64,000 nucleotides of DNA, from positions 1,998,089 to 2,062,088 of the forward strand of contig NZ_LR733312.1 in assembly GCF_902506295.1 (NCBI RefSeq), given 5' to 3'. Below the pieces are notes generated by a model. The model saw only the letters and a program-made list of their open reading frames with translations, had not been told where the DNA came from and did no database searches. Positions within the stretch are counted from its first letter, which is position 1. Each line of letters opens with the position of its first letter. The translations under genes were made by a program, and so were the position numbers. Positions 56,858 to 64,000 of the stretch are shown piece by piece. The stretch is from Luteimonas sp. 9C. GTDB lineage: Bacteria > Pseudomonadota > Gammaproteobacteria > Xanthomonadales > Xanthomonadaceae.

Positions 56858-57958
56858 ATGGGCATTCTCGATGGGCTGGGCAACGCCGCCTCGCAGGCGG
56901 GCGGGTTCTTCAAGGGCGCCGGCGAAGTGCTCTGGGAGACCGGCGAAGGCGTGGTCACGCTCGGCGGCAACGCGCTCAAGACGAGTTACGACCTGGGCCC
57001 CGCGGGCTTCGCCGTCGATGGTGTGACCGGGCTGTACGAGCGTGCCACCGGCGACACGCTCGATGCGCCGGCGTGGCTGCCGTCGGCCGCGCGCGGCGGT
57101 GAGCGGATGGAAGCGGCCGCCGAGGTCGTCTCCACCCTCGCCCGCAATCCCGGACTGCTGGTCGACGCCGTGGTCGAGCCGATCAAGGCCGACTGGCAGG
57201 CCGGCCACTACGGCGAGGCCATCGGCCGCGGCGCGACCGAACTGGTGCTGGCCGTGGTCGGCACCAAGGGCGCCGACAAGGCGGCCAAGGGCGCGAAGGT
57301 GGCCGATGCGGTCGAGACCGCCGCCGACGCCACCCGCGCGAGCGGGCGCGTGGACGATCTCGGCGATGCCGGTCGCACCACCGCGGCGCACGGCGCCGAC
57401 GAGACGGCCCTAGGCGACATCCTCGCCGACGCCGACACCGGCCGCACCGTCGGCGGGCGCCCGGTGCTGGCGTTCGAATCGATGGACGACTTCAACCTCG
57501 CCGCGAACGCCGCACGCCCGGACACCGTCTACGAATTCGGCGCCTACCGCTGGACCACCGACGACCAGGCGCGCGTGATCCGCGCCGAAGGCCGCGTCGA
57601 TCTCGAGCCGGTGGGCCGCAACGACGCCGGCCTGCAGCGCGACATCGGCAACGAAGGTCGCGACACCGACGTCGGCTTCCACGTCATCGCCGACCGGCTC
57701 GCCGGACCGACCAACCGCCTGAACGTGGTGCCGGGCAACGGCAAGCCGATCGGCGACGGCCTGCCGAACCTCAACAACGGCGACTACAAGCGCTTCGAGA
57801 ACGAGCTGGCGCGGCTGGCCGGCGACGGGCACGCGGTGGATATGCGGGTATCGCCCCAATACAATCCGGGCAACACCAGCAACCGTCCCGACACCTTCGT
57901 TGCGGAATATCGCTTGGATGGCGGCGACTGGATCGACCAGACCTTCCCCAACAAGTGA
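56858..57958 (+). CDS. DNA/RNA non-specific endonuclease toxin
   Basis: The 366-residue protein has an N-terminal Gly/Ala-rich helical region (1-200) without signal peptide and a C-terminal domain (about 221-366) that fits the Endonuclea_NS_2 toxin class. Key signs are RVDLEPVGRN, then the catalytic-type His275 in DVGFHVIADR, LAGPTNRLNVVPGN, and LNNGDYKRFENELARLA. The closing YRLDGGDWIDQTFPN is also typical. It is followed after 12 bases by a YezG-like gene, the immunity family of the B. subtilis nuclease toxin YeeF. It may be a contact-dependent or secreted toxin; the export route is unknown. Confidence 0.8.
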   Translation: MGILDGLGNAASQAGGFFKGAGEVLWETGEGVVTLGGNALKTSYDLGPAGFAVDGVTGLYERATGDTLDAPAWLPSAARGGERMEAAAEVVSTLARNPGLLVDAVVEPIKADWQAGHYGEAIGRGATELVLAVVGTKGADKAAKGAKVADAVETAADATRASGRVDDLGDAGRTTAAHGADETALGDILADADTGRTVGGRPVLAFESMDDFNLAANAARPDTVYEFGAYRWTTDDQARVIRAEGRVDLEPVGRNDAGLQRDIGNEGRDTDVGFHVIADRLAGPTNRLNVVPGNGKPIGDGLPNLNNGDYKRFENELARLAGDGHAVDMRVSPQYNPGNTSNRPDTFVAEYRLDGGDWIDQTFPNK

Positions 57959-57970
57959 TGCGCACACGCC

Positions 57971-58405
57971 ATGGATGATCTCAACGCCGCCTATGCCGAC
58001 ACCGTGCGTGCCGTCGCGGCGAGCGTCCGCGACGTGAACGACGGCGAATGGGGCGCGCGTGACTGGCTGCGCCTGGTGGTCGATTTCGAATCGCTGTCCG
58101 AGGACGGCGGCGCGCCGCGCACCAGCAGCATTTCGTTCGCGATCGCGCGCGCAGGCGACGGCCCGCTGGAGAAGGTCGCGTTCCGCCTGTCGCCCGAAGC
58201 CAAGGCCGGCTTCGCGCAGATCGGCCGGATCATGCACGCGCAGAAGGGCCAGGACTGGACCACGAGCACGCTGGTCGTCGAGCGCGACGGCCAGTACGAC
58301 TTCCAGTTCGGCTACACCGCGCCGTACCGCCTGTCGGGCAACCTCAACGACACGCGCTATCGCGACTACCTCGAGCGCTACAAGGCCGAGACCGGCGCGC
58401 CCTAG
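57971..58405 (+). CDS. YezG-like (DUF600) immunity protein
   Basis: The 144-residue acidic protein has no signal peptide. The C-terminal half has WTTSTLVVERDGQYDFQFGY followed by a YRDYLERYKAE end, which resembles the pattern of YezG-family immunity proteins (W-x-x-x-T, GxxxxxFxY, then a WxxY-type helix). It starts 12 bases after the nuclease gene on the same strand, the usual toxin then immunity order, and so likely protects the cell from its own nuclease. Confidence 0.75.
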   Translation: MDDLNAAYADTVRAVAASVRDVNDGEWGARDWLRLVVDFESLSEDGGAPRTSSISFAIARAGDGPLEKVAFRLSPEAKAGFAQIGRIMHAQKGQDWTTSTLVVERDGQYDFQFGYTAPYRLSGNLNDTRYRDYLERYKAETGAP

Positions 58406-58852: not shown

Positions 58853-59443
58853 TCAGTCGACGCGGGTCGCGTCGGGCACGCGCGCCGGATCGGCCGCCGA
58901 CTGGGGGACGCGGCGGATCTTGGAGATGTCGTAGCCCAGCGCACTGATGCGCGCCATGTGCGCCGCGTAATCGGATTCCGGGATCGACGGCGTACGCGCC
59001 ATCAGCCACACGTAGTCACGCTTGCTGCGCCCGACGATGGTCTGCTGGTACGCGTCGTCGACGTAGACGATCACGTACTCGGCCTTGATCGGCCAGACGA
59101 ACTGCATGCCCCAGATCGCATTGCCGGTGCCTTCGCGCACCGTGCCGGTGGGGTGCATGGTCTTGATCTTCTCGTCGAAGCCGCCGTCGCGATAGCGGAA
59201 CGTCGTGTCGACCTTGCCGTCCTCGCGCAGCGTGTAGGTCTCCACCGAATCGAAGGCCTCCTTCTCGAGGCGCGTCGGGATCTGCGCGATGACGTACCAG
59301 TCGCCCATGAAGCGCGGTACATCGACGTGCGCGACCGGGGGAATCTGTTCCTTCACATTGCCGCCTCCACAGGCCGCGAGCATGCCGGTGGCGATGCCCG
59401 CGAAAATCAGGCCAGCGGCAAACCGCCGGTTCGAAGTCGCCAT
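58853..59443 (-). CDS. blc: Outer-membrane lipocalin Blc
   Basis: Blc is a lipoprotein that binds lysophospholipids and fatty acids and is often induced by envelope stress. The 196-residue protein has a lipobox LAAC (Cys25), the lipocalin GDWYVIAQIPT motif near 47-57, and a long C-terminal helix with LGYDISKIRRVPQ. AGGAGG stands just before ATG 59443. It lies 37 bases after a CFA-like gene and is probably the last member of the lipid-modification operon. Confidence 0.93.
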   Translation of the reverse strand: MATSNRRFAAGLIFAGIATGMLAACGGGNVKEQIPPVAHVDVPRFMGDWYVIAQIPTRLEKEAFDSVETYTLREDGKVDTTFRYRDGGFDEKIKTMHPTGTVREGTGNAIWGMQFVWPIKAEYVIVYVDDAYQQTIVGRSKRDYVWLMARTPSIPESDYAAHMARISALGYDISKIRRVPQSAADPARVPDATRVD

Positions 59444-59480
59444 GAAACCCCTCCTGCCGTGAGTGCGGCGTCGGTCGCGG

Positions 59481-60563
59481 TCAACCCGCGCGTGAGAACC
59501 GGTAATGCGCGACCAGCCACTGCTGGCCACGCTCGTATCCGAACAGCTCGGCGCAGGACATCCAGAACATGCGCCAGCGCTGGAACCACAGCTTCGCCCC
59601 GTCCGCGCCGTAGGCCTGCTCGAGCACGCGCATCACGGCATCGCGGTTGCGGTCCTGGTTGGCGAGCCAGTGGTTGGAGGTCTTTTCATAGTGCGTGCCG
59701 TCGAGCAGCCAGCGCTGTTCGATGCCGAGATCGCCCTGCTGGAAATGCAGCAGCGTGTCCGCCGCCGGCATCAGGCCGCCGGTGAAGAAATGCCGGCCCA
59801 TCCAGTTGTCCTCGCCCGCGGTCTCGTAGGGATACATCAGCGTGCGGTGCGCGAAGATGTGCACGAACAGCTTGCCGCCCGGTCGCAGCCACGTGCCGAT
59901 GCGCGTCATCAGGGTCTGGTAGTTGCGCATGTGCTCGAACATCTCGATCGACACCACGCGGTCGAAGGCCCCGGTGTCGAGCGACAGCTCGTTCACGTCA
60001 CAGGTGATCACCCGCACGTTGCCCAGGCCGCGCGCCTTGCACTGCGCTTCGATGTGCTGGCGCTGCGGGCGCGAGTTCGAGACGGCGGTGATGCGCGCGC
60101 CGGGAAACTGCTCGGCCATCCACAGCGTCAGCGAACCCCAACCGCAGCCCAGTTCGAGGATGTCCTGCCCGTTGGCGAGCTCCGCGCGGGCGCCGTACAG
60201 CGCCAGCATCGCGTCTTCGGCTTCGTCGAGCGTCTCGTTGCCGGTCGGGTAGTAGCAGCTGCTGTACTTGTAGCGGCGCCCGAGGCACAGCGCGAAGAAT
60301 TCCGGCGGCAGTTCGTAGTGCTGGGTGTTGGCCGCATCGGTGTGGATGGCGACGGGACTGGTGCGCAGCGACTGCAGCAGCGTGTCGAAGCGCGTCGACT
60401 GCGCCTCCATGCTGCCGGCCGTTTCTTCGGCCAGTCGTTGCGCGCACAGGCGACGGATGCCCAGGCGCAGCGCCGCATCGGGCACCAGTCCGCGTTCGGC
60501 CATGCCGATCAGGCCGGGCGCGGCGGTGTCGCGTTCGAGTTCGGGGCGAGCCACGGCATTCAT
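59481..60563 (-). CDS. CFA-synthase-like SAM methyltransferase 1
   Basis: The 360-residue protein has a helical N-terminus and a SAM-binding domain with ILELGCGWGSLTLWMAEQFPG (about 137-157), then VSIEMFEHMRNY and FVHIFAHRTLMYPYE. It belongs to the CFA/coclaurine N-methyltransferase superfamily and keeps the Glu and both His typical of it. It may methylate or cyclopropanate unsaturated fatty acyl chains of membrane lipids; the exact product cannot be told. It overlaps the DUF1295 gene by 4 bases. Confidence 0.88.
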   Translation of the reverse strand: MNAVARPELERDTAAPGLIGMAERGLVPDAALRLGIRRLCAQRLAEETAGSMEAQSTRFDTLLQSLRTSPVAIHTDAANTQHYELPPEFFALCLGRRYKYSSCYYPTGNETLDEAEDAMLALYGARAELANGQDILELGCGWGSLTLWMAEQFPGARITAVSNSRPQRQHIEAQCKARGLGNVRVITCDVNELSLDTGAFDRVVSIEMFEHMRNYQTLMTRIGTWLRPGGKLFVHIFAHRTLMYPYETAGEDNWMGRHFFTGGLMPAADTLLHFQQGDLGIEQRWLLDGTHYEKTSNHWLANQDRNRDAVMRVLEQAYGADGAKLWFQRWRMFWMSCAELFGYERGQQWLVAHYRFSRAG

Positions 60564-61351
60564 GCGGACGGTCCTCTGGAGTCGGATTTGGGGAACCACG
60601 GAAACAGCATCGGCGTGGTGCGCTGGTAGTCGCGGTAGTCGTCCCCGCGCGTCCGCAGTGCCTGCTGTTCGGTATAGGGAATGCCACTGACATAGCGCAG
60701 GAACAGGTACATCACCACCGGTCCGGCCAGCGCGAGCCACCACAGCGGCGAACCCGCCGCGAGGACCACGTAGGTCAGCCAGTGCAGCCATTCGAAGAAG
60801 TAGTTCGGATGCCGCGAGTAGCGCCACAGGCCATCCCTGCAGGTCTTGCCGCGGTTGGCGGGATCGGCGCGGAAGTCGGCCAGCTGCCGATCGGCCACCG
60901 CTTCACCGCCGACGCTGATCAGCCAGACCGCGATCGCGGCGAGCAGACCGAGCGAGGAGACGGGATTGGCCGCCACCGCGAGGAACGGCACCGCGAACAG
61001 TACGATCAGCAGCGCCTGGGCCTGGAAGAACAGGAAGAACTTGCGCTGGTCGCCGTGCCAGTGCGTGCGCAGATAGGCGTAGCGGCCATCCTCGTCCTCG
61101 CTGCGCACGCGCTTCCACAGATGCGCCGCCAGGCGCAGGCCCCACAGCCCGCCGAGCACGGCGAGCAGGATCCGTGGCAGCGGCGCGCCATCGCCCAACA
61201 ACGCGACCACGACCGCCGCGCCGCCGACGCCACAGGCCCACACCACGTCGACGATGCCGGCGTTGTCACGGGCCTTCTGCCAGCGCCAGGCGCCGGTCAT
61301 CGCGATCGCGGCGAGCGCCCAGACCACCAGCAGCGTCCACAGCGGGCTCAT
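60560..61351 (-). CDS. DUF1295-family membrane protein (steroid reductase-like)
   Basis: The 263-residue protein has six or seven membrane helices and the family block DGLWRYSRHPNYFFEWLHWLTYVVLA (about 170-195), like the C-terminal part of steroid 5-alpha reductases and isoprenylcysteine methyltransferases. It is expected to act on a lipid in the membrane, possibly reducing a double bond. It lies between two CFA-like genes with 4-base overlaps at each side, so it is translated with them. Confidence 0.9.
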   Translation of the reverse strand: MSPLWTLLVVWALAAIAMTGAWRWQKARDNAGIVDVVWACGVGGAAVVVALLGDGAPLPRILLAVLGGLWGLRLAAHLWKRVRSEDEDGRYAYLRTHWHGDQRKFFLFFQAQALLIVLFAVPFLAVAANPVSSLGLLAAIAVWLISVGGEAVADRQLADFRADPANRGKTCRDGLWRYSRHPNYFFEWLHWLTYVVLAAGSPLWWLALAGPVVMYLFLRYVSGIPYTEQQALRTRGDDYRDYQRTTPMLFPWFPKSDSRGPSA

Positions 61352-62592
61352 GACGCCACCAACCGCACATGGTCCGGCTTGCCGAACAGCAGGTGGGACA
61401 CGCCGATCGAGCGCTCGCGGAACCCGCCCTCGCAATACGCCAGATAGAACGTCCACATGCGCTCGAAGCGCCGGTCGAATCCCTGCCGGCGCACCTCCGG
61501 GAGCTGCGCCAGGAACCGCTCGCGCCAGATCTGCAGCGTGCGCGCGTAGGAGGGACCGAAATCGTCCTGCTGCAGCAGCTGCAGATCGCTGGCCGCGGTC
61601 TTGGCCTGCAGCATCGCGCTGATCGAGGGAATGAAGCTGCCGGGGAAGATGAAGCGCTTGATGAAGTCGACCGAATCGCGCGCCTGCGCGTAGCGGTGGT
61701 CCTCGATGGTAATCGCCTGGACCAGCGCGGTGCCGTCGGGCTTGAGCAGGCTGCCGAGCTTGCCGAAATACGTCTCGAGATACTGCGCGCCGATCGCCTC
61801 GATCATCTCGATGGAGACCAGCTTGTCGTAGGTGCCCTCGAGGTCGCGATAGTCCTCCAGCAGCAGCGTGACACGCTCCTGCAGACCGGCCTCGGCGATC
61901 CGCGCGCTCGCCAGCGCATGCTGCTCGCGCGAGATCGTGGTGGTGGTGACGTGGCAGCCGTAGTGCTGTGCGGCGTGCAGCGCGAAACCGCCCCAGCCGG
62001 TGCCGATCTCGACCACGCGGTCGCCCGGCCGCAAGGCCAGACGCGTACAGATGCGGTCGAGCTTGCGCGTGGACGCGGTTTCCAGCGTGTCGTCCTCGCG
62101 TTCGAACAGCGCGGAGGAATACATCAGGTCCGGCGAGAGGAACAGCGAGAAGAAATCGTTGCCGAGATCGTAGTGCGCGGCGATGTTGCGGCGGCTGCCG
62201 TCGCGCGTGTTCCGGCGCAGCGCGTTCCAGCCGCGCATCGCGAGCCCGCCAAGGCGCGCGATGCCGGTTTCCATGCCGTCGAGCAGATCGCGGTTGCGCA
62301 CCAGCAGGCGCACCAGGCCGACCAGATCGTCGCAATCCCAGTGTCCCTCCATGTAGGACTCGCCCGCACCGACGCTGCCGTTGGCGGCCACCAGGCGGTA
62401 GAACGCGGGATCGTGCACGCGCACGTGCACCGGTCGGATCGTCGCGTCGCCGAAGGTCTCGCTGCCGAGTGCGTCATCGAGCCGCAGCGCGTCGCCTTCC
62501 ATCCGGGCGAACTGGGTGACAAGGCGCGCACGCAGAGCCCGCTCGAGCGCGCCGGGCGGGCGCAGCGTCGCATGGGCGGCGATCTGGTTCAT
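61348..62592 (-). CDS. CFA-synthase-like SAM methyltransferase 2
   Basis: The 414-residue protein aligns along its length with E. coli cyclopropane fatty acid synthase, with VVEIGTGWGGFALHAAQHYG as SAM loop (about 193-212), SIEMIEAIG, YIFPG-like FIFPGSFIPS and a conserved CEGGFRER near the end. Glu265 matches catalytic Glu239, but the bicarbonate ligands Cys139 and His266 are Ser160 and Gln292 here. This could be a methylase such as UfaM of the furan fatty acid pathway and not a cyclopropane synthase. ATG 62592 is used. It overlaps DUF1365 by 4 bases. Confidence 0.88.
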   Translation of the reverse strand: MNQIAAHATLRPPGALERALRARLVTQFARMEGDALRLDDALGSETFGDATIRPVHVRVHDPAFYRLVAANGSVGAGESYMEGHWDCDDLVGLVRLLVRNRDLLDGMETGIARLGGLAMRGWNALRRNTRDGSRRNIAAHYDLGNDFFSLFLSPDLMYSSALFEREDDTLETASTRKLDRICTRLALRPGDRVVEIGTGWGGFALHAAQHYGCHVTTTTISREQHALASARIAEAGLQERVTLLLEDYRDLEGTYDKLVSIEMIEAIGAQYLETYFGKLGSLLKPDGTALVQAITIEDHRYAQARDSVDFIKRFIFPGSFIPSISAMLQAKTAASDLQLLQQDDFGPSYARTLQIWRERFLAQLPEVRRQGFDRRFERMWTFYLAYCEGGFRERSIGVSHLLFGKPDHVRLVAS

Positions 62593-63404
62593 CGGGAAGG
62601 CTCCTGTTCGGTCCGCGGCAGACGCGGGTGGTCGTGCACCGGATTGCGCTTGAGCCAGAGACGCAGCGCCTGCCAGTGGATCGCGGCGACGACCTGTGCG
62701 GTCATCGCGGGGTAGCGCCACAGCACGCGCGCAAGCGAGCCCGCGTCCAAGGGTCGCCGTTGCAGTGTCATCGTGGCGTCGAATTCGCGCACGTCATCGC
62801 GCAGCACGTCCATGTGGATGTGCAGATCCTCCACCGGTGGCGTCAGCCGCCAGCGGTAGCGGTGGTCCATCGCCATGAACGGCGAGACGTGGAAGACCTT
62901 GTCGAACGCCCACTGCAGCGCGCGGCCGTGCCGTTCGGCATCCGCGGCCGGCAGCACGTAGGCATGGCGCTCCTTCCACGGCGTATTGGTGATCTCGGCG
63001 ACGATGCAGTCGAGCGTCGTGCCATCGGCGCGATAGCAGTAGTAAAAGCTCACCGGGTTGAACACGAATCCGAAGTAGCGCAGATGCGTGAGCAGCCGGA
63101 TCGGGCCGTCGGGCCTGCGTCCCAGTGCGGCTTCGACGCGCAGGCGCACGGCCTCGGCGAGCGGCACGTCGGTCGGGCCGAGGTAATCGGCGCGGCGGAA
63201 CCGGGCCAGTGCCGGGCGTCGGGTCGACCACAGCCAGCGGCCCTCGAACACGCGATCGAGCTCGTCGAGATCGAGCCACAGCTGCGCGACGCGGTAGGAA
63301 AATGCGTGCGGCACCGGGTGGTAACGGCGATGGCGCACCACGCCTTCGTAGACCGCGCTGTGCAGCCCCGGGGCCGGCGTCGCGCGAATGCCGTCGCCGC
63401 TCAT
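62589..63404 (-). CDS. DUF1365-family protein
   Basis: The 271-residue protein has the family signatures VVRHRRYHPVPHAFSYRVAQLWLDLDEL near the N-terminus, YFGFVFNPVSFYYCY (about 110-124), EITNTPWKERHAYVLP, and DKVFHVSPFMAMDHRYRWRL. DUF1365 genes accompany FAD oxidoreductase and CFA-like genes in many Proteobacteria. The activity is unknown. It overlaps the genes on both sides by 4 bases. Confidence 0.93.
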   Translation of the reverse strand: MSGDGIRATPAPGLHSAVYEGVVRHRRYHPVPHAFSYRVAQLWLDLDELDRVFEGRWLWSTRRPALARFRRADYLGPTDVPLAEAVRLRVEAALGRRPDGPIRLLTHLRYFGFVFNPVSFYYCYRADGTTLDCIVAEITNTPWKERHAYVLPAADAERHGRALQWAFDKVFHVSPFMAMDHRYRWRLTPPVEDLHIHMDVLRDDVREFDATMTLQRRPLDAGSLARVLWRYPAMTAQVVAAIHWQALRLWLKRNPVHDHPRLPRTEQEPSR

Positions 63405-64000
63405 GCGACGGCGCTCACGGGCCGCGGCGCCGCCGGTTCGCGGGCTGCGTCGGCCAGTGGTCCGACTCCGAACGCACGCGCGACCTGGGCCGCGCTGCGG
63501 ATGCCGTCTTCGTGGAATCCCCAGCCCCAGTACGCACCGGCGTACCAGGTCCGGCGCGTGCCCTGGATCTCCTCGCGGCGGCCCTGCGCAGCCACCATCG
63601 CCGCGTCGTAGACCGGGTGCGCATAACGCATGCGCGCAAGCACGCGCGCCGGATCGATCGCACCGCTGCGGTTGAGCGTGACCACCAGCGGCTCGGGCGC
63701 ATCGAGGCCTTGCAGCTGGTGCATGCAGTAGCTCACCGTGCACGCCGCACCGGGCGTGGCGGGAATGTGCGCGTTCCACGCCGCCCAGGCCTTGCGGTTG
63801 CGCGGCAGCAGACGTGCATCGGTGTGCAGCACCGTCTCGTTGTGCTGGTAGCGGATCGCGCCAAGGATGTCGCGCTCGGCGGCATCGGCATCGTCGAGCA
63901 GGGCGAGTGCCTGGTCGCTGTGGCAGGCCAGCACGACCTGGTCGAAACGCTCGCTGCCGGCGGCGGACGTCACGAGCACGCCCTCGGCATCGCGGCGGAC
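63401..64000 (-). CDS. FAD-dependent oxidoreductase (amine oxidase-like), C-terminal part
   Basis: Only the last 199 residues are in the window; the gene continues past its end. They contain the FAD amine oxidase-type blocks FDQVVLACHSDQALALL, IRYQHNETVLHTDARLLPRN, AAWNAHIP and the C-terminal TWYAGAYWGWGFHEDGI that closes over the flavin. It heads the visible operon with DUF1365, the CFA-like genes and DUF1295. Related genes act as desaturases in furan fatty acid synthesis in Rhodobacter, so a lipid substrate is likely. Confidence 0.88.
   Translation of the reverse strand, partial: VRRDAEGVLVTSAAGSERFDQVVLACHSDQALALLDDADAAERDILGAIRYQHNETVLHTDARLLPRNRKAWAAWNAHIPATPGAACTVSYCMHQLQGLDAPEPLVVTLNRSGAIDPARVLARMRYAHPVYDAAMVAAQGRREEIQGTRRTWYAGAYWGWGFHEDGIRSAAQVARAFGVGPLADAAREPAAPRPVSAVA

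Follow-up and report, generated by a model that had tools for sequence, protein, structure and literature searches.

A putative furan fatty acid operon of Luteimonas sp. 9C with its own desaturase and a possibly exchangeable sigma/anti-sigma pair on a shared promoter box

Introduction

Furan fatty acids are a class of lipids described as radical scavengers. Here we describe a putative furan fatty acid operon at the edge of a 64,000-nucleotide stretch of Luteimonas sp. 9C DNA (C2:1998089-2062088 of a 3.35-Mb genome in two contigs), which is called the window in what follows. In Rhodobacter sphaeroides and Rhodopseudomonas palustris these lipids are built on phospholipids by UfaM, UfaD and UfaO (PMC7380195). 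UfaM methylates cis-vaccenate to 11-methyl-12-trans-18:1, UfaD is a phytoene-desaturase-like protein that binds nicotinamide and flavin adenine dinucleotides (NAD and FAD), and UfaO is a DUF1365 protein; the oxygen of the furan ring derives from O2, and the second ring methyl is added by FufM (PMC7380195). The genes RPA2571-2569 of Rhodopseudomonas are ufaD-ufaO-ufaM (PMC7380195). The same three genes are consecutive in Halomonas sp. YLGW01, whose UfaM gave 11-methyl-octadec-12-enoate in E. coli (PMC12089945).

A nine-gene cluster of Stenotrophomonas maltophilia, smlt2375-smlt2367, was published in 2025 as being under rpoEc-chrR-chrA. Loss of chrR raised the expression of the cluster 165- to 697-fold. 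When the cluster was deleted from the chrR mutant, both the tolerance to superoxide (menadione) and the ceftazidime (CAZ) susceptibility were nearly reverted; the tolerance gained was to superoxide and not to singlet oxygen (PMC11832516). The words furan and RskA are absent from the main text of that paper.

Results and Discussion

Six genes of the window, all co-directional (Table 1), form the set in which the earlier note on this DNA had seen a lipid-modification operon: an FAD oxidoreductase, a DUF1365 protein, an S-adenosylmethionine (SAM) methyltransferase (MT2), a DUF1295 membrane protein, a second methyltransferase (MT1) and a Blc-type lipocalin. Both this set and the link drawn in the note to furan fatty acid synthesis in Rhodobacter hold good, the FAD, DUF1365 and MT2 proteins being of the UfaD, UfaO and UfaM types and their genes standing in the order of RPA2571-2569. 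The tight overlap described there is found from FAD to MT1, with 4 bp at each of the junctions FAD/DUF1365, DUF1365/MT2, MT2/DUF1295 and DUF1295/MT1; it does not extend to the lipocalin, whose likely start, ATG 59443, lies 37 bp downstream of MT1. The start GTG 59530, from which the overlap with MT1 had appeared, was dropped for this ATG. Just outside the window the junction of the FAD gene with a fatty acid desaturase gene is again a 4-bp overlap, and the 18-kb stretch upstream of FAD holds, in the same direction, this desaturase, an RskA_C anti-sigma factor, an extracytoplasmic function (ECF) sigma factor and a periplasmic-looking protein, which is the first gene of the operon.

We consider it likely that this is a stress-induced operon by which acyl chains of membrane phospholipids are converted to mono- and dimethyl furan fatty acids, and it probably encodes the complete dimethyl-furan pathway, desaturase included. 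In the proposed mechanism the membrane desaturase would supply a cis double bond; MT2 would methylate one of its carbons, and the neighbouring C-H would lose a proton with no closure of a cyclopropane ring, in keeping with the changed bicarbonate site of this enzyme. The FAD enzyme would then form a conjugated diene, the DUF1365 protein would insert an oxygen derived from O2 and so close the furan, and MT1 would put on the second ring methyl. An accessory part would fall to DUF1295 and to the lipocalin, the latter perhaps as a lipid carrier. Transcription would start at two GCATCC boxes, one before the periplasmic first gene and one before the desaturase; locally they would be read by a SigK-like sigma factor under restraint by RskA, a membrane anti-sigma, and perhaps also by the ECF11-ChrR pair at a distal site, which has the same box upstream of it. 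What was seen is the gene content and order, the residues, the boxes and the regulator families; the product, all the enzyme steps, the acting sigma factor and the start sites are predictions.

Table 1. Genes of the putative operon within the window (positions are those of the window)
Feature	Position	Strand	Length	Domain and other evidence
FAD (amine-oxidase type) oxidoreductase, UfaD-type	63401-64702 (in-window part 63401-64000)	-	433 aa	PF01593 76.5 bits
DUF1365 protein, UfaO-type	62589-63404	-	271 aa	PF07103 291 bits
MT2, UfaM-type SAM methyltransferase	61348-62592	-	414 aa	PF02353 275 bits
DUF1295 membrane protein, steroid-reductase-related family	60560-61351	-	263 aa	PF06966 238.5 bits; Steroid_dh 36.9 bits
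MT1, CNMT-like SAM methyltransferase, probable FufM type	59481-60563	-	360 aa	CMAS family
Blc-type outer-membrane lipocalin lipoprotein	58853-59443	-		PF08212 143.7 bits; AGGAGG ahead of the start; lipobox LAAC

The gene set recurs well beyond this genome. MT2 was matched at E<=1e-60 in 174/250 genomes of the order, and 80 relatives were hand-picked for diversity and long contigs from the 173 other MT2-bearing genomes. The 81 loci of the order hold DUF1365 in 81 cases, MT1 in 80, FAD in 79, the desaturase in 76, DUF1295 in 73 and a Blc-like lipocalin in 38. Considering both the frequency of MT2 and the recurrence of its partner genes, the set is not a chance assembly. Within the genus MT2 is patchy (14/52 genomes), and the operon seems to have been often gained or lost there. 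A desaturase of the operon type, present in 76/81 loci of the order, was seen in only 1 of 60 other loci, hand-picked among the listed matches of a search of the phylum. This genome has two further FA_desaturase genes. In members of this order most chains are saturated and iso-branched, and the unsaturated substrate may therefore be made by the operon itself; if it is, furans on iso chains are predicted.

The FAD protein also matches NAD_binding_8 and, weakly, crtI_fam (22 bits). For the DUF1365 protein the predicted model was confident (predicted local distance difference test, pLDDT, 91.7), a barrel with a long C-terminal helix. The fold search with this model gave no clear solved relative (best Foldseek E 7.1e-3); fatty-acid-binding, nitrobindin and spirocyclase barrels tied in the structural comparison, where the best Z was 7.5 at a root-mean-square deviation (rmsd) of 4.0 over 127 residues. 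That this oxygenase might be cofactor-free or haem-binding is speculation on the model. NanoLuc was found further down among the loose structure matches.

The UfaM-type methyltransferase

The E. coli cyclopropane fatty acid (CFA) synthase, Cfa, and MT2 share 38% identity over 357 columns, and the predicted model of MT2 aligned with the Cfa structure (6bqc) with a Z of 41.5 and an rmsd of 2.0 over 344 residues, the two-domain CFA fold being complete. Cys139 of Cfa is presumably a ligand of bicarbonate. Contacts with bicarbonate have been described for Glu239, His266 and Tyr317 (PMC11387697). In the alignment with 6bqc, Glu239, Ile268 and Tyr317 are retained in MT2 as Glu265, Ile294 and Tyr349, and Cys139 and His266 are replaced by Ser160 and Gln292, just as the earlier note had stated.

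These positions were surveyed in 142 MT2-like rows, of which 81 belong to the order and 61 to other parts of the phylum. FAD and DUF1365 genes lie close by on the same strand in 127 of them, and Gln occupies the His266 position in 127/127 of these linked rows. At the Cys139 position 125 rows have another residue (Ser 114, Ala 10, Gly 1) and 2 keep Cys. Of the 15 unlinked rows, Ser and Gln are found in 13 and the ordinary Cys/His in one, which is a second copy in L179; the last could not be placed in the alignment. As a control, the 30 best matches to E. coli Cfa were taken as CFA synthases, and Cys and His are kept in 30/30. A set of 30 sequences, some from loci titled Bacteroidetes, Planctomycetes and Verrucomicrobia, likewise showed no exception to Gln292. 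Since every linked row has Gln and every CFA synthase has Cys/His, the Ser160/Gln292 change is, by these alignments, a family signature and not a local oddity. The same counts support the suggestion of the earlier note that MT2 carries out a methyl transfer other than cyclopropanation.

It would be a very improbable reading, in our judgement, that the locus encodes two ordinary CFA synthases with accessory genes, as the Stenotrophomonas annotation suggests. MT1 and MT2 do both belong to the CMAS family, MT2 keeps the Glu, Ile and Tyr and the whole fold, and PMC11832516 names both genes CFA synthases; but Gln stands for His in all linked rows and in 0/30 CFA synthases, MT2 reaches 287 bits on the NCBIfam model of CFA synthase (PRK11705), under its 400-bit cut-off, MT1 is far nearer to coclaurine N-methyltransferase (CNMT) than to Cfa, and the genes are linked to those of UfaD and UfaO type. 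MT2 is thus very probably no cyclopropane synthase by these sequence criteria. In this genome it is the only match of E. coli Cfa at E<=1e-30; with the CMAS model there were two matches besides MT2 and MT1, at 37.6 bits (over the cut-off) and 23.4 bits (under it).

The synthesis of 10-methyl fatty acids likewise pairs a CFA-like methyltransferase gene with one for an FAD enzyme (PMC7791843); if the locus were of this kind, MT2 would methylate and the FAD enzyme would reduce the methylene intermediate, as in BfaAB/TmsAB. We regard this as scarcely credible here. The enzymes of that paper were chosen for a conserved Cfa bicarbonate site (PMC7791843), which is absent in MT2, and on this ground the BfaAB/TmsAB reading was rejected; the FAD protein is of the amine-oxidase/phytoene-desaturase type, and DUF1365 and MT1 would be left without a role. 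For the UfaM assignment preferred here, Gln in place of His266 is a candidate sequence rule by which furan-type methyltransferases could be told from the cyclopropane synthases as which they are annotated, for example in Stenotrophomonas (PMC11832516).

The second methyltransferase

MT1 is probably a furan methylase of the FufM type, judging from its relatives and its neighbours. Its best match in the PDB was CNMT (6gkv), with 252 bits versus 77 for E. coli Cfa, and on PRK11705 it reached 132 of the 400 bits of the cut-off; by these figures a CFA synthase was ruled out. The earlier note had spoken of two CFA-like enzymes, which remains right for MT1 in so far as it is CMAS-related, but its closest relatives are the plant CNMTs, and this fits FufM. 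MT1 and MT2 are 28% identical over 223 columns, which is compatible with the 26% quoted for FufM and UfaM (PMC7380195). The neighbours of MT1 were counted within 9 kb in the best 80 of 502 confirmed MT1 places of a scan of named-genome contigs, whose first query row was closest to Burkholderiales: DUF1295 was found in 60, MT2 in 50, FAD in 49, DUF1365 in 47, and the desaturase and the lipocalin in 28 each. Rhodopseudomonas was absent among these best 80 of 502. The plant protein AT4G33110 is presumably CNMT-like and of the same clade. FufM is 37.9% identical to it (PMC10940516).

The pathway could instead end at monomethyl furans, with MT1 methylating another substrate, for example a head group or an amine; we hold this rather unlikely. 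It would agree with the nearest solved relatives of MT1 being N-methyltransferases, with a likeness to FufM that comes from published identities rather than from a direct alignment, and with the 30/80 MT1 loci, some on short contigs, that have no MT2 within 9 kb; it is opposed by the resemblance of FufM to the plant protein and by the 50 loci of the same 80 in which MT2 is present. A sample of 14 chosen genomes from two families of another class, probably alphaproteobacterial (f58 and f61), also bears on it: 7/11 genomes of f58 have a full-length MT1 relative (43-49% identity), and in G404 this copy lies about 300 kb from the MT2 homologue, like the fufM of R. palustris, which lies apart from ufaM (PMC7380195).

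The regulators and the promoter box

The anti-sigma factor of the operon matched RskA_C with 71 bits (cut-off 29.4) and is the sole RskA_C found in the genome; the search of solved structures with it found no relative. Its gene is overlapped by that of the ECF sigma factor, and the pair sits inside the operon. The sigma factor is nearest to SigK of M. tuberculosis (4nqw, 109 bits), followed by RpoE of R. sphaeroides (92 bits). We name it SigK-like and not SigK because its 153.3 bits on the NCBIfam SigK model are below the cut-off of 226 bits. It has two cysteines 50 residues apart, the spacing of Cys133 and Cys183 in SigK (PMC7509140), and such a pair occurs in 22/22 sigma factors of RskA-type loci versus 0/21 ECF11 sigma factors of ChrR-type loci. 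A full ECF11-ChrR pair, with the sole ChrR match of the genome, is found at C2:405015 (L007), 1.65 Mb from the operon; it adjoins an apparent major facilitator superfamily (MFS) transporter and an SMP-30-like gene. The earlier note had pointed to an ECF sigma factor with a ChrR-like anti-sigma upstream, and this is not what adjoins the genes: ChrR was excluded as the local anti-sigma, the neighbour being RskA_C and the ChrR match lying at the distal site. Control by singlet oxygen is not established at the locus, given that the adjacent regulator is not ECF11-ChrR. The distal pair is a possible second input to the operon, as far as its upstream sequence tells.

Across the 81 loci of the order RskA is the nearest regulator in 22, ChrR in 21, and neither lies within 9.5 kb in 38. 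On the MT2 tree these three states need 13 changes, RskA versus ChrR alone at least 7, and the starred branches force at least 5 for RskA. In the tree of sigma factors the RskA-type and ChrR-type groups are separate clades with 99% support in the approximate likelihood ratio test (SH-aLRT), at a place where the tool warned of long branches meeting; the rows of L061, L062 and L112 were only short fragments there and their places were ignored, and on recheck these sigma genes were whole enough to carry the cysteine pair. The recognition helices are alike, mostly PLG-x-x-KS-x-x-RR.

A common box, [TC]GCATC[CT]-N16-CGTA, is found upstream of the desaturase in 21/22 RskA loci and 20/21 ChrR loci, and its strict form, TGCATCC-N16-CGTA, in 18 RskA, 12 ChrR and 6 neither-pair loci. 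The box also stands upstream of the periplasmic gene in 11/15 RskA and 10/12 ChrR loci where this gene was found, and upstream of the ECF11 gene in 19/21 ChrR loci. At spacing 16 the 81 loci (1.56 Mb) hold 82 copies of the strict box, against 0-4 for each other spacing from 8 to 29. In this genome the desaturase box has N16 and CGTAT, and the distal ECF11 gene (L007:472) is preceded by CGCATCC-N16-CGTAT. L186, a locus from a different family of the class (f29), holds sigma-RskA, DUF1295, MT1, lipocalin, FAD, DUF1365 and MT2 with four strict boxes.

RskA_C and ChrR exceeded their cut-offs in 40/250 and 34/250 genomes of the order. Their proximity to MT2 was counted in two families, f1 (35/36 genomes with MT2, G170 left out) and f12 (29/29), the matches of other families being left out; the genomes of each family are related, and the Fisher value for proximity overstates the evidence. 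In f1, RskA lies within 10 kb of MT2 in 15/15 genomes with both genes and ChrR in 14/17, including G160, where it is split and below the cut-off, and no genome has both nearby. In f12 the figures are 11/16 for RskA and 12/16 for ChrR, with both in one genome. At L048, from G160, the ChrR gene and DUF1295 each match as two pieces, by decay or by an assembly frameshift.

Taking these counts into account, we judge it improbable that the SigK-like/RskA pair is a chance neighbour and that the distal ECF11-ChrR pair acts in trans to control the operon, as such a pair does in Stenotrophomonas. The distal ECF11 gene carries the same box, and ChrR is kept elsewhere in 3/26 genomes with RskA near MT2 (f1 and f12). 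Nevertheless no ChrR exceeds the cut-off in 22 of these 26, RskA is close to MT2 in every f1 genome with both, all but one of the RskA loci have the box before the desaturase, and in this genome the pair lies inside the operon. The fuller proposal, of a one-operon dimethyl furan pathway with its own desaturase whose sensor pair has been repeatedly exchanged between two unrelated systems (ECF11 with the cupin-type ChrR, and a SigK-like sigma factor bearing the cysteine pair with the membrane protein RskA) while the promoter box stayed constant, is put forward tentatively, with slightly less than even confidence. If true, one step would suffice, thanks to the shared promoter, to place the same output under a new stress signal, and the operon of this genome would be the meeting point of both sigma factors. 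The locus also makes it possible to test directly whether ECF sensors have been replaced repeatedly while the promoter stayed fixed. A search of the literature open without subscription for these regulators with these genes gave no report of such an exchange. The kind of system is known; what we take to be new is the Gln rule for the methyltransferases, the repeated exchange of sensors on one box, and a putative pathway that is complete in a single operon, FufM-type gene included.

Weight of the evidence against

Several observations weigh against the furan proposal and its regulation. The orthology to the characterised UfaM, UfaO, UfaD and FufM is putative, being drawn from linkage, domains and published identities, and 30 of the 80 MT1 loci lack a nearby MT2. 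RSP1087-1089 are dispensable in Rhodobacter (PMC7380195), so that a step for DUF1295 or the lipocalin cannot be proved from linkage alone. The strain with Halomonas ufaM also had cyclic fatty acids, E. coli having its own cfa (PMC12089945). Furthermore, among the matches listed by a literature search of the same coverage as above there was no furan fatty acid report for this order. Given the mostly iso-branched chains of this order, the products may differ from the 9M5 and 9D5 furans. As to the control, 38/81 loci have neither pair nearby, and among the 33 of these with a desaturase only 6 have the box before it; the first box of this genome, before the periplasmic gene, has N17 and CGTAC and not the spacing of 16; and the N15-17 pattern has 10 matches genome-wide versus 4 in a reversed control, so that most of the other matches mean little.

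Neighbouring genes

The periplasmic-looking first gene (L005 10355-11140, minus strand) had no match in Pfam or NCBIfam, and a relative of it is present in 28/81 loci of the order. The gene next upstream encodes a glycerophosphodiester phosphodiesterase. The guanine-plus-cytosine content of the operon (0.694) is not distinctive against its flanks (0.709 and 0.701). On the other side, a plus-strand gene at 56858-57958 of the window encodes a protein with a DNA/RNA non-specific endonuclease domain (PF13930, 50 bits), followed by a small plus-strand gene at 57971-58405 with no Pfam match; the two resemble a polymorphic nuclease toxin gene and the immunity gene that goes with it.

Comparison with known systems

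With the pathway of R. sphaeroides and R. palustris the locus shares the FAD, DUF1365 and CFA-like methyltransferase genes in the order of RPA2571-2569 and a second methyltransferase, distant from the first, that fits FufM. It differs in that all are joined here in one operon, which includes the desaturase, DUF1295 and the lipocalin, and in the local SigK-like/RskA pair, where the pathway described there has RpoE-ChrR (PMC7380195). The Halomonas genes are a consecutive trio as here, and the results section of PMC12089945 names no MT1, desaturase or RskA, unlike the present locus.

The cluster of S. maltophilia is annotated, in order, as a periplasmic protein, a desaturase, an FAD enzyme, a hypothetical protein, a CFA synthase, two membrane proteins, a CFA synthase and a lipocalin, and matches our operon by annotation and order only, which suggests that the two are equivalent. 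Smlt2375 takes the position of the periplasmic-looking first gene. The cluster differs in its divergent ECF11-ChrR pair and in one extra membrane gene (PMC11832516).

The mycobacterial sigK locus also holds FAD, DUF1365, ufaA1 and DUF1295 genes. SigK-RskA (ECF18/19) of mycobacteria and Yersinia have in common with our pair the RskA_C anti-sigma and the SigK cysteines 50 residues apart (PMC7509140), whereas the sigma factor described here scores 153 bits with the NCBIfam SigK model, under its cut-off of 226, and lies within a furan-type operon. Finally, E. coli Cfa (6bqc) and MT2 have the two-domain fold and the Glu, Ile and Tyr of the bicarbonate site in common and differ, at 38% identity, by the Ser and Gln of MT2 in place of Cys139 and His266.

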